DNA of 64,000 bases. Origin: Blastococcus sp. HT6-4. Its GTDB lineage: Bacteria; Actinomycetota; Actinomycetes; Mycobacteriales; Geodermatophilaceae. This document shows, one piece after another, positions 37,506 to 40,693 of this stretch (position 1 is the stretch's first letter; the number at the start of each line of letters is the position of its first letter). A model generated the notes under the pieces. That model did no database searches, was not told the origin of the DNA, and saw nothing but the letters and a program-made list of their open reading frames with translations. Position numbers and translations under genes: made by a program. The DNA is taken from the NCBI RefSeq assembly GCF_039679125.1, contig NZ_CP155551.1, forward strand, positions 2,294,001 to 2,358,000, read 5' to 3'.

Positions 37506-37604
37506 GACGGCCCACCCTAGCGCCGGCCGTCACCCGCTCGGGAGGTGCCGTCCGGCATCAACTGCGAAGGTGGCAGGACGCACCCGCAACGGCAGGAGGA
37601 CCCG

Positions 37605-38060
37605 GTGGCAGAGATCGCCTACGTCTCGGACGTCCGTGTGGAGCGCCTGGGAGGACCGCTGCGCGCGGCCCACCTCCCGGGCGAGGAGGAACCGACGGTC
37701 TACGGCATGCACGGGGCCATCGCCGAGCACTACGGCATGGAGCCGGGCACCGCGCCCAGCCACGCCAGCACCATCGACCACGTGGTCGGCGCCGCCGCCG
37801 GTTAGCTGACGGGGACGTTCGCCGGGGCCCTGACGGCCCGGCGGATCGACCCCACCGGTCTGGTGGGGCACGCGCGCGGCGAGGTTGAGCTCGAGGGCAA
37901 GGTGCTGGTGCTCAAGCGCATCGAGGTCACCTACACCGGCCTGGACGTCCCCGAGCAGGACGCCGAGAAGGTCCAACGGGTGCTCGCCGTCCACGCCGAC
38001 GGCTGCCCGGTCGCCCGGAGCCTGCGGGGAGCCATCGAGATCACCACGCGCCTCGGGTGA
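37605..38060 (+). CDS. OsmC-family peroxiredoxin with in-frame UAG at the catalytic Cys (probable UAG-selenocysteine protein)
   Basis: Read through, this is a 151-residue OsmC-family protein. The frame from GTG 37605 (AGGAGG just upstream) reaches TAG at 37803-37805, residue 67, within AAAG-X-LTGTFAGAL, exactly where OsmC proteins have the peroxidatic Cys (AxxGCLTGT). The same frame then continues without error through the family blocks VGHARGEVELEG and VLAVHADGCPVARSL, which holds the second conserved Cys, to a TGA at 38058. Cys (TGC/TGT) to TAG needs two base changes. UAG-decoded selenocysteine is known in Geodermatophilus and Blastococcus, so recoding is the best reading; a pseudogene is the alternative. 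Confidence 0.82.
37820..37868 (+). promoter_or_regulatory. Candidate SECIS hairpins downstream of the UAG
   Basis: Hairpin 1: CGCCGG (37820-37825) with CCGGCG (37838-37843), a bulged G and an inner GCC/GGC, loop CTGAC about 27 bases after the TAG, the usual distance for bacterial SECIS loops. Hairpin 2: CCCCACC (37850-37856) with GGTGGGG (37862-37868), loop GGTCT, the same loop as the E. coli fdhF SECIS but about 52 bases from the TAG. Neither is a full match; which one matters is open. Confidence 0.4.
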
Positions 38061-38092
38061 GGGTGGGGGCGCGGGGTCCCGCGCTCTCACCC
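38061..38092 (+). terminator. Terminator hairpin after the OsmC gene
   Basis: GGGTG (38061-38065) pairs with CACCC (38088-38092), enclosing GCGCGG/CCGCGC (38069-38084). It starts directly after the TGA that ends the read-through OsmC frame, which supports that TGA as the true gene end. Confidence 0.6.
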
Positions 38093-38227
38093 GGACAGCA
38101 GGAACGACCGGCCGGCGACACGCCCGGCGGAAACGACATGCCTCAATCCCCGGCGAGCGGGTAGCGGACGCTGAGCGGAACGTGACCGCGCCAGCGCGGG
38201 TTGGTGGACAACTGGCAAGGAGGACAC

Positions 38228-39481
38228 GTGCTCTCGGATCGATCCCGGCCCGTCATCGAGGCGACGCTCCCCGTCGTCGGCGAGAACATCGAGGAGATCG
38301 CCACCAGGTTCTACGCGCACCTGTTCGGCGAGCACCCCGGGCTCTTCGACGGGGTGTTCAACCGCGGGAACCAGGCCGAGAAGACCCAGCAGATGGCGCT
38401 CGCCGGGTCGGTGGCCGTCTTCGCCTCCTCGCTGCTGAAGGTCCCCGAGCAGCTCCCCGAGCACCTGCTCTCGCGGATCGCCCACAAGCACGCCTCGCTG
38501 GGCATCACCCCGGCGCAGTACGACGTCGTCCACGAGCACCTCTTCTGGGCGATCGCGGACGTGCTCGGTGACGCGGTCACCCCGGAGGTGGCCGCCGCCT
38601 GGGACGAGGTCTACTGGCTCATGGCCTACGCGCTGATCAACCAGGAGCGCGGCCTCTACAGCGCCCGCGGGGTGCGCCCGGAGACGGTGTGGCGCGAGTG
38701 GGAGGTCGCCGAGCGGATCCAGGAGACCGCGGACGTCGTCACCTTCCGGATGCGGAAGGTCGACGACCGCCTGGTGAAGACCTCGCTGCCCGGTCAGTAC
38801 GTGACCGTCCAGGTGCCGATGCCCGACGGCGTGCGCCAGCCCCGGCAGTACAGCCTCACGAAGGCCGACGACGGCGAGCACCGCCAGTTCTCGGTGAAGC
38901 GGGTGCACGGCGGCGGCAAGCCCGACGGCGAGGTCTCGAACCTCCTCTGCGACCAGGTGCAGGTCGGTGACCGGCTGACGATGTCGGTGCCCTTCGGGGA
39001 CGTCGTGCTCGACGACTCGGGCCGCCCCGTCGTGTTCGCCAGCGCCGGCATCGGCGTGACCCCGATGGCCGGCATGCTCTCCCACCTGGTGGCGGCGGGG
39101 TCGCACCTGCCGATCACGCTCCTGCACGCCGACTCCGACGAGGAGTCCTTCGCCCTGCGCGAGCAGGTGCTCGAGGACCTCCGGTCGCTGGAGTCCGGAT
39201 CGGCGCACGTCTGGTACGAGGGCGGCGCCGCGAGCAGCCTCCCCGTGGAGGTCCACGCCGGGACGATGGACCTCCGCGAGGTCGCGCTGCCCGACGACGC
39301 CGTCTACTACCTGTGCGGCCCGCTGCCGTTCATGCAGGGCGTGCGCAGCGCGCTGATCGAGCGCGGGGTGCCCGCGCGCGACATCCAGTACGAGGTGTTC
39401 GGACCCGACCTCTGGCAGGCCGACCTCGCCACGGAGTCCACCCCGGGGGCATCGGACGAGCGGGTCGCCGTGGGCGCCTGA
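38228..39481 (+). CDS. hmp: Flavohemoprotein / nitric oxide dioxygenase
   Basis: A 417-residue three-domain protein: globin (about 1-140) with the distal Tyr region RFYAHLFGEHP and the proximal-His region IAHKHASLGI; FAD-binding domain with RQYSLT; NAD-binding domain with GIGVTPM and CGPLPFM, ending in YEVFGP. It converts NO to nitrate in the cytoplasm using NADH and O2. The GTG follows AAGGAGGA. No recognised NsrR-type site was seen in the 135 bases upstream. A second, related gene follows. Confidence 0.93.
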   Translation: MLSDRSRPVIEATLPVVGENIEEIATRFYAHLFGEHPGLFDGVFNRGNQAEKTQQMALAGSVAVFASSLLKVPEQLPEHLLSRIAHKHASLGITPAQYDVVHEHLFWAIADVLGDAVTPEVAAAWDEVYWLMAYALINQERGLYSARGVRPETVWREWEVAERIQETADVVTFRMRKVDDRLVKTSLPGQYVTVQVPMPDGVRQPRQYSLTKADDGEHRQFSVKRVHGGGKPDGEVSNLLCDQVQVGDRLTMSVPFGDVVLDDSGRPVVFASAGIGVTPMAGMLSHLVAAGSHLPITLLHADSDEESFALREQVLEDLRSLESGSAHVWYEGGAASSLPVEVHAGTMDLREVALPDDAVYYLCGPLPFMQGVRSALIERGVPARDIQYEVFGPDLWQADLATESTPGASDERVAVGA

Positions 39482-39553
39482 CCGCCTGTCCCCACCGCCG
39501 GTCCGGCTCGCGTGCCGCGGGACACCGGACGCCACCCCCTTGAGGAGACGCTC

Positions 39554-40693
39554 GTGGACATCCCCGCGATGCGGGCCAACTTCGCCAAAGCAGCTGCCAC
39601 GGGGGACGAGGCCCCGCTGTACTTCTACTCGCACCTGTTCCTGAGCCACCCGGAGACGCGGCAGATGTTCCCCGTCTCGATGGCACACCAGCGGGACCGA
39701 TTCTTCACCGCTCTCGGCGAGGTGGTCACCCGGGTCGACGACCTCGAGGCGCTGGTCCCCATCCTGCAGCAGCTCGGGCGCGACCACCGGAAGTTCGGGG
39801 TGCTCCCCGCGCACTACCCCGCCGCCGGGGCGAGCCTGCTGGCGACCCTCGAGCACTTCGACGACGAGTGGACGCCCGAGCTCGCCAAGACCTGGGCCGA
39901 GGCCTACGACGTCGTGGCGAACGTGATGATCCAGGCCGCCGAGGAGGCCGAGGGGCAGCCGGCGTGGTGGGACGCCGACGTGGTGGGCCACGAGCGCCGC
40001 GCCCTGGACGTCGCCGTCCTCCGGATCCGCCCCCGGGCGCGGTACGACTACCTCCCGGGGCAGTCGCTGTCCCTGGAGACCGAGCTGCGCCCCCGGTTGT
40101 GGCGGTACTACTCCCCCGCCAACGCCCCCCGGTCGGACGGGCTGGTGGAGCTGCACGTCAAGGCGCGGGACGGCGGTCCGGTCAGCTCCGCCCTGGTGCG
40201 CAGCGTCGGGGTCGGCGACGTCCTGCGGCTGGGGCCACCGATGGGCGACCTGACCGTGGGCCAGGACTCCGACCGCGACCTGCTGCTGATCGCCGGCGGC
40301 ATGGGTCTGGCCCCGCTGAAGGCGATGGTCGACCAGGTGGCCCGCCAGGGTCCGCCCCGGCGGGTCGACCTGTTCGCCGGGTTCCGCACCGAGGACCAGA
40401 TCTACGACCGGGCCGACCTCGAGCAGCTGGCCCGGGAGCACCCCTGGCTCAACGTCACCTTCGCCGTCTCCGACGACGCCATCTCGTCCCTGGTGCACGG
40501 CGAGATCGGGGACGTGGTGCGACGCTCCGGCCCGTGGTCGAGCCGGGAGGTGCGCATCGCCGGCCCCGAGCCCATGGTGACCAGCACCGTGGCCGGCCTC
40601 CGGCAGGATGGCGTCCCGGAGCACCGCATGTCCAGCGAGGTCTTCGCCCCCAGCCGACCGGGGCCCAGTGTTGACGGAGAGGTGACCGAATGA
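39554..40693 (+). CDS. Globin-FAD/NAD reductase fusion (second flavohemoglobin-type protein)
   Basis: A 379-residue protein with a globin domain (FYSHLFLSHPETRQMF; proximal His in RDHRKFG), a FAD domain with RYYSPAN in place of RxYSL, and an NAD domain with GGMGLAPLKAM and AGPEPMV. It is shorter and well diverged from the gene before it, so it is a separate type, not a recent copy. A GAGGAG site precedes the GTG. Its stop overlaps the ATG of the DivIVA-like gene. It may act on NO or O2 or serve as a sensor; the reaction is not shown. Confidence 0.87.
   Translation: MDIPAMRANFAKAAATGDEAPLYFYSHLFLSHPETRQMFPVSMAHQRDRFFTALGEVVTRVDDLEALVPILQQLGRDHRKFGVLPAHYPAAGASLLATLEHFDDEWTPELAKTWAEAYDVVANVMIQAAEEAEGQPAWWDADVVGHERRALDVAVLRIRPRARYDYLPGQSLSLETELRPRLWRYYSPANAPRSDGLVELHVKARDGGPVSSALVRSVGVGDVLRLGPPMGDLTVGQDSDRDLLLIAGGMGLAPLKAMVDQVARQGPPRRVDLFAGFRTEDQIYDRADLEQLAREHPWLNVTFAVSDDAISSLVHGEIGDVVRRSGPWSSREVRIAGPEPMVTSTVAGLRQDGVPEHRMSSEVFAPSRPGPSVDGEVTE

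Follow-up and report, generated by a model that had tools for sequence, protein, structure and literature searches.

The gene at 37605-38060 of the window (the whole 64,000-nt stretch analysed here, from the soil actinobacterium Blastococcus sp. HT6-4) almost certainly encodes an OsmC-type peroxidase with a peroxidatic selenocysteine (Sec) at UAG. The codon would be read by a tRNA-Sec with anticodon CUA together with SelA, SelB, and SelD, and SelB would be recruited by an RNA element that lies within the coding sequence, 3' of the UAG. Computed evidence for this comes from the reading frame, the Sec machinery of the genome, conservation of the codon, the matching UGA found in a second phylum, and the constrained RNA. 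A UAG-Sec OsmC peroxidase had been proposed in a preliminary description of the same DNA, and the machinery, codon conservation, and UGA counterpart support it, insertion of selenium being predicted from the sequence.

Table 1. Coordinates of the OsmC gene, its parts, and neighbouring signals in the window
Feature	Position	Strand	Remarks
Ribosome-binding site AGGAGG	37594..37599	+	Ends 5 nt 5' of the GTG start; from sequence
Proposed OsmC-family selenoprotein gene	37605..38060	+	151 residues, Sec is residue 67
In-frame TAG, proposed Sec codon	37803..37805	+	First redox-Cys position
Helix 1	37816..37848	+	33 nt, offset 13-45 from the T of the TAG; candidate looped-out spacer
Helix 2	37850..37868	+	7-bp stem, GGUCU loop at 37857-37861; putative SelB-binding hairpin
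TGC codon, second Cys (DGCPVARS)	38004..38006	+	67 codons 3' of the TAG
14-bp hairpin 3' of the TGA	38061..38092	+	Possible terminator without a U run

As described earlier, the frame opens with GTG at 37605 and closes with TGA at 38058-38060, its sole interruption being the TAG at 37803-37805; under the standard code it terminates after residue 66. The readthrough product matches PF02566 (E = 4.9e-11, 43.4 bits, above the curated cut-off of 27.5). In an alignment with OsmC 1ukk, Sec67 and Cys134 of DGCPVARS coincide with the first and second Cys, respectively, which agrees with the earlier placement of the TAG at the first conserved Cys and with an intact second one. In known OsmC/Ohr enzymes the first Cys is peroxidatic and the second is resolving. 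Acting as a peroxidase, the protein would use Sec67 to attack the hydroperoxide and the Cys of DGCPVARS for resolution. As for the terminator hairpin described after the TGA, the 14-bp hairpin is present, but it lacks a U run and a scan found no terminator-like site.

The Blastococcus sp. HT6-4 genome, a single 4.30-Mb contig, has one strong tRNA-Sec (65.7 bits, Rfam cut-off 47), and its anticodon is CUA. The only other match above that cut-off (48.2 bits) is tRNA-Ser(UGA) according to ARAGORN. The tRNA-Sec gene is adjoined by selA (423 bits, cut-off 267.9) and selB (288 bits, cut-off 242), with selD (388 bits, cut-off 125) close by; the gene order in the surrounding 20 kb is selD, selC, selA, selB, with selD on the opposite strand. 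The genome thus neither lacks Sec machinery nor is limited to a UCA anticodon, either of which had been named as evidence against recoding. In-frame TAG codons also occur in two formate dehydrogenase (FDH) genes and one UGSC gene of the same genome. All five stops cited previously as ordinary (41458, 49304, and 59852, and on the minus strand 25519 and 33744) are indeed TAG, and the suggestion that recoding depends on local context finds its counterpart in the conserved RNA element after the OsmC codon. If that element recruits SelB, other UAG codons would still terminate translation. As a side observation, ARAGORN names the tRNA-Sec(CUA) gene (L002 1501-1596) tRNA-Pyl, a possible source of misannotation in Geodermatophilaceae.

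OsmC homologues (E 1e-20) are present in 17 of 112 Geodermatophilaceae genomes, which represent four genera (g1, g2, g3, and g9) and each have a CUA tRNA-Sec. All 17 genes carry a single TAG at the same residue and are otherwise open, so the earlier statement that there is no decay after the TAG extends to the relatives. In Gemmatimonadota, a homologue is found in at least 90 of 395 genomes; 100/100 matches listed have exactly one in-frame stop, TGA, which falls on the TAG residue in 30/30 genes read in detail. These matches are 37-56% identical to the OsmC protein over the matched stretches. Comparison of this codon among homologues had been proposed as a check, and it gives TAG in the family, TGA in Gemmatimonadota, and no unrelated inactivating mutations. 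The query had Cys at the Sec site, so a Cys form would score at least as well, and none of this OsmC subfamily was found among the matches listed from the 112 Geodermatophilaceae and 395 Gemmatimonadota genomes. The class and phylum searches scored the best nine or fewer candidates per genome, and their counts are possible underestimates. Among the matches listed at class level (394 genomes, E 1e-25, stricter than the family limit of E 1e-20) is the own genome alone, and the close-relative scan, which alone covered other phyla, returned 12 loci (11 from Geodermatophilaceae and 1 from Gemmatimonadota). A tRNA-Sec is detected in 48/50 Gemmatimonadota genomes with the OsmC gene versus 12/20 without it; it is missing above the cut-off in G504 and 2/50 other genomes, whose assemblies are perhaps incomplete. 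According to an unrooted tree of 47 proteins, a single branch with support 100/100 separates the 17 UAG from the 30 UGA genes, and a single change between UGA and UAG would suffice to account for the codon distribution.

Within Geodermatophilaceae, 102 of 110 tRNA-Sec genes (108/112 genomes) have the anticodon CUA, and the remaining eight, with the loop CTTCAAA, have UCA. Seven genomes of genera g5, g6, and g7 (L042-L047 and L050; fragmented assemblies) combine a UCA tRNA-Sec with no FDH match, which puts the UGA/UAG switch inside the family. Genome G058 (genus g3; contigs C17 and C11) carries two tRNA-Sec genes that differ in anticodon (CUA and UCA). In L041 (1173-1263 (-) and 1579-2157 (+)), the UCA gene and a CMD/peroxidase-related gene that has an in-frame TGA at CFYU are 0.3 kb apart, so G058 may employ UGA as well as UAG for Sec; the surrounding frames look like transposases by eye.

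Genomic context is poorly conserved. The flavohaemoglobin gene and the upstream gene adjoin OsmC in 3/17 loci and the next gene in 2/17, and an operon-based role, which was looked for, was rejected with neighbours shared by just 2 to 3 of 17 loci. No plasmid record matches the OsmC gene at E 1e-10. Downstream in the window, the frame at 38201-39481 encodes a flavohaemoglobin (globin, FAD, and NAD domains), and the frame beside it (39512-40693) looks similar to it by eye.

Constraint on the protein is retained on both sides of the TAG, with median dN/dS of 0.09 before it and 0.17 after the RNA element; together with 17/17 homologues having TAG at the same residue, this argues that the codon is not there by chance. 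Median dS equals 0.61 before the TAG, 0.16 in codons +1 to +22 (132/136 pairs, only those with dS above zero being kept), and 0.60 beyond, i.e., synonymous change in the element is depleted about fourfold, and the lowest 22-codon window of synonymous change begins at -1. The least variable codons are +12 to +21, which contain the GGUCU hairpin: 0.024 of comparable pairs differ there, versus a median of 0.335 and a minimum of 0.161 for 10-codon windows elsewhere in OsmC. Compared with synonymous recodings, the fold is clearly over-stable only directly 3' of the TAG: mean z is −2.3 for offset 0 and −3.2 for +5 codons, and the strongest of the remaining offsets (26 in all) reaches −1.2. No such excess is seen from +10 codons (z −0.45), where the window takes in helix 2 and only part of helix 1, and the UGA genes (n = 30) show little at offset 0 (mean z −0.38).

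These results bear on three other explanations of the interrupted frame. A nonsense mutation that ends translation and leaves a truncated gene or pseudogene is what the standard code suggests, stopping the frame after residue 66. However, the TAG is common to all homologues in the four genera, median dN/dS is low before and after it, and in homologues from a second phylum this codon is TGA, so such a loss is scarcely credible. Reading of UAG as a different amino acid, by pyrrolysine insertion or a suppressor tRNA, draws on the tRNA-Pyl label given by ARAGORN; but Rfam scores the CUA gene as tRNA-Sec, the gene adjoins selA and selB, and the homologues of the other phylum use UGA, which makes this very improbable. 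Two polypeptides, the second initiated at GTG 37863, would be conceivable given the 65-aa frame that opens there in the OsmC frame, and this second start weakens the earlier point that no restart is available. The residues encoded from 37806 to 37862 would be omitted, yet all of them except one position are identical across the 17 genomes, and a restart is accordingly given next to no weight. The pseudogene, pyrrolysine, and restart readings were all set aside on these grounds.

As for the RNA element, 17/17 genes have, at offset 54 from the T of the TAG, a GGTCT loop closed by a 7-bp stem. A scan of the window and three other stretches (246,002 strand-bases) gives 252 GGTCT occurrences, and the OsmC copy alone has a closing stem of at least 6 bp. 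With the protein sequence fixed, 1.2% of random synonymous recodings (2,353/200,000) create a 7-bp GGUCU hairpin at this place, so the argument for it is that it is conserved and resembles the FDH hairpin, rather than that it is present at all. Folding with the first 13 nt kept unpaired, as in the ribosome, yields helix 2 at offsets 47-65 in 17/17 genes and helix 1 across offsets 13-45 in 16/17 (its interior is shifted in L025), with 14-43 in L024. The helix 1 loop is CUGGC, CUGAC, or CUCGC in 16/17 genes and has no G in its first two places. Each helix has one pair with a change on both sides, in one sequence each (C-G to G-U and C-G to U-A), and 99.7% of the cells in the helix alignment pair, compared with 25.6-54.7% when it is slid. 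In the minimum-energy fold of the free RNA of the window's own gene helix 2 is broken, and the 75-nt stretch does not exceed shuffled sequences in stability (z −0.46). Helix 2 is present when the other 16 genes are folded free. In the window's mRNA, helix 2 would consequently need the ribosome to open the first bases.

FDH genes offer the closest parallel for the loop. FDH matches are found in 99/112 Geodermatophilaceae genomes, and 118/121 matches have one TAG, the remaining 3 being fragments that end before the TAG residue. The loop, at offset 21 counted from the first base of the TAG, is GGTCT in 50 of the 51 FDH genes read and AGTCT in the other; 49 genes have a stem of 7 bp and two a stem of 6 bp, with 3/7 pairs changing on both sides. 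E. coli fdhF likewise has GGTCT at offset 21 from the first base of its UGA, and both there and in the FDH genes of this genome the hairpin begins 11 nt 3' of the Sec codon. A distance of 11 nt between codon and upper stem-loop is given for E. coli in the available part of PMC8659212. The OsmC gene shares the GGUCU loop with fdhF, but has it 33 nt further 3' (offset 54), with a 33-nt helix in between. In the UGSC gene (L214, TAG at 1696, minus strand), an 8-bp stem with a GUG loop could start at offset 14, 11 nt 3' of the UAG, and the 90-nt fold of the gene differs from this; such a hairpin would mean that the GGUCU loop is not universal.

The bacterial SECIS model, as set out in the available text of PMC13188914, has a G in the first two loop positions and separates the apical loop from the Sec codon by 16-37 nt. 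The OsmC GGUCU loop has this G in 17/17 genes but starts 51 nt after the TAG, within the distance range only if helix 1 is looped out, and the helix 1 loop has no such G; by that description, neither hairpin fits on its own. Helix 1 takes 33 nt, and 54 − 33 = 21, so looping it out as a spacer would restore the standard 11-nt spacing for the GGUCU hairpin, which would then bind SelB. The exact value of 21 depends on the two outermost helix 1 pairs, which are invariant and show no covariation; the effective offset is 26 otherwise. As a separate observation, the Gemmatimonadota OsmC genes (L154-L183) have a GC-rich hairpin-forming stretch at offset 22-38 after the TGA, at the helix 1 position, and many of the 30 folds show a hairpin at about this offset whose short loop is GGN. 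Such a hairpin would fit the published SECIS model as presented in the accessible portion of PMC13188914.

Sec may also be inserted with helix 1 alone serving as the SECIS, the GGUCU hairpin being coincidental or having another role. Helix 1 lies at the usual distance and at the position of the UGA genes' hairpin, excess stability appears in its windows (z −2.3 and −3.2) and not at +10 codons, and the chance of obtaining the distal hairpin by recoding is 1.2%. On the other hand, the helix 1 loop lacks the G that the model in PMC13188914, so far as available, requires in the first two places (16/17 genes), the hairpin codons +12 to +21 are the least variable ones (0.024 versus a median of 0.335), and the OsmC loop is that of 50/51 FDH genes. 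A signal made of helix 1 alone is therefore a real but rather doubtful possibility. A Sec signal that acts from beyond the accepted 16-37 nt by way of a looped-out 33-nt helix is mildly favoured. Since the UGA genes have their hairpin at the helix 1 position, a selenoprotein gene that was transferred may have acquired a new SelB site fitting its host while its old hairpin stayed on as a spacer. Points counted against the Sec reading as a whole are the absence of helix 2 from the free fold, the ordinary stability of the 75-nt stretch, the z at +10 codons, the recoding chance (low but not tiny), the mean z of the UGA genes, the unconserved neighbours, and the genomes with no tRNA-Sec above the cut-off (G504 and 2/50 others).

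The OsmC gene is classed as a new member of the UAG-Sec selenoproteins, and it adds a peroxidase to their short list; the standard code cuts each gene of this subfamily short. One Sec residue encoded by UGA in one phylum and by UAG in another forms a natural pair. The RNA element is probably a new variant of bacterial SECIS. If the two-hairpin reading is true, a class of signals escapes the SECIS search rules now in use, and the SelB spacing rule could be tested in a natural case. The newness lies in the RNA signal; UAG-Sec in Geodermatophilaceae, mentioned in the preliminary description as known, is indeed in print.

In comparison with known selenoproteins, the protein scores 16.3 bits against NF041052 (OsmC_like_Se), below the cut-off of 95, and a Gemmatimonadota member scores 21.1 bits; we take NF041052 to model the OsmC-like selenoproteins of marine metagenomes. 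These are described with a UxxT motif in the part of PMC1088965 available, and OsmC-like selenoproteins also appear in tables of PMC9312934, PMC2398784, and PMC13188914, as far as accessible. The marine protein belongs to the same OsmC family and has Sec as its redox residue, with the motif UxxT versus U-L-T-G here. For Geodermatophilaceae, UAG-Sec is reported for FDH, UGSC, and AhpC (PMC5330540, available text). The tRNA-Sec(CUA), the UAG at the Sec site, and the bacterial family are the same as in that account, but OsmC is not named in its available text, and the distance between codon and RNA element is larger in OsmC than in FDH; in the accessible parts of the literature searched for it, OsmC with UAG-Sec was not found named. 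The UGA-coded OsmC of Gemmatimonadota is a homologous protein with Sec at the same residue, its codon being UGA instead of UAG.
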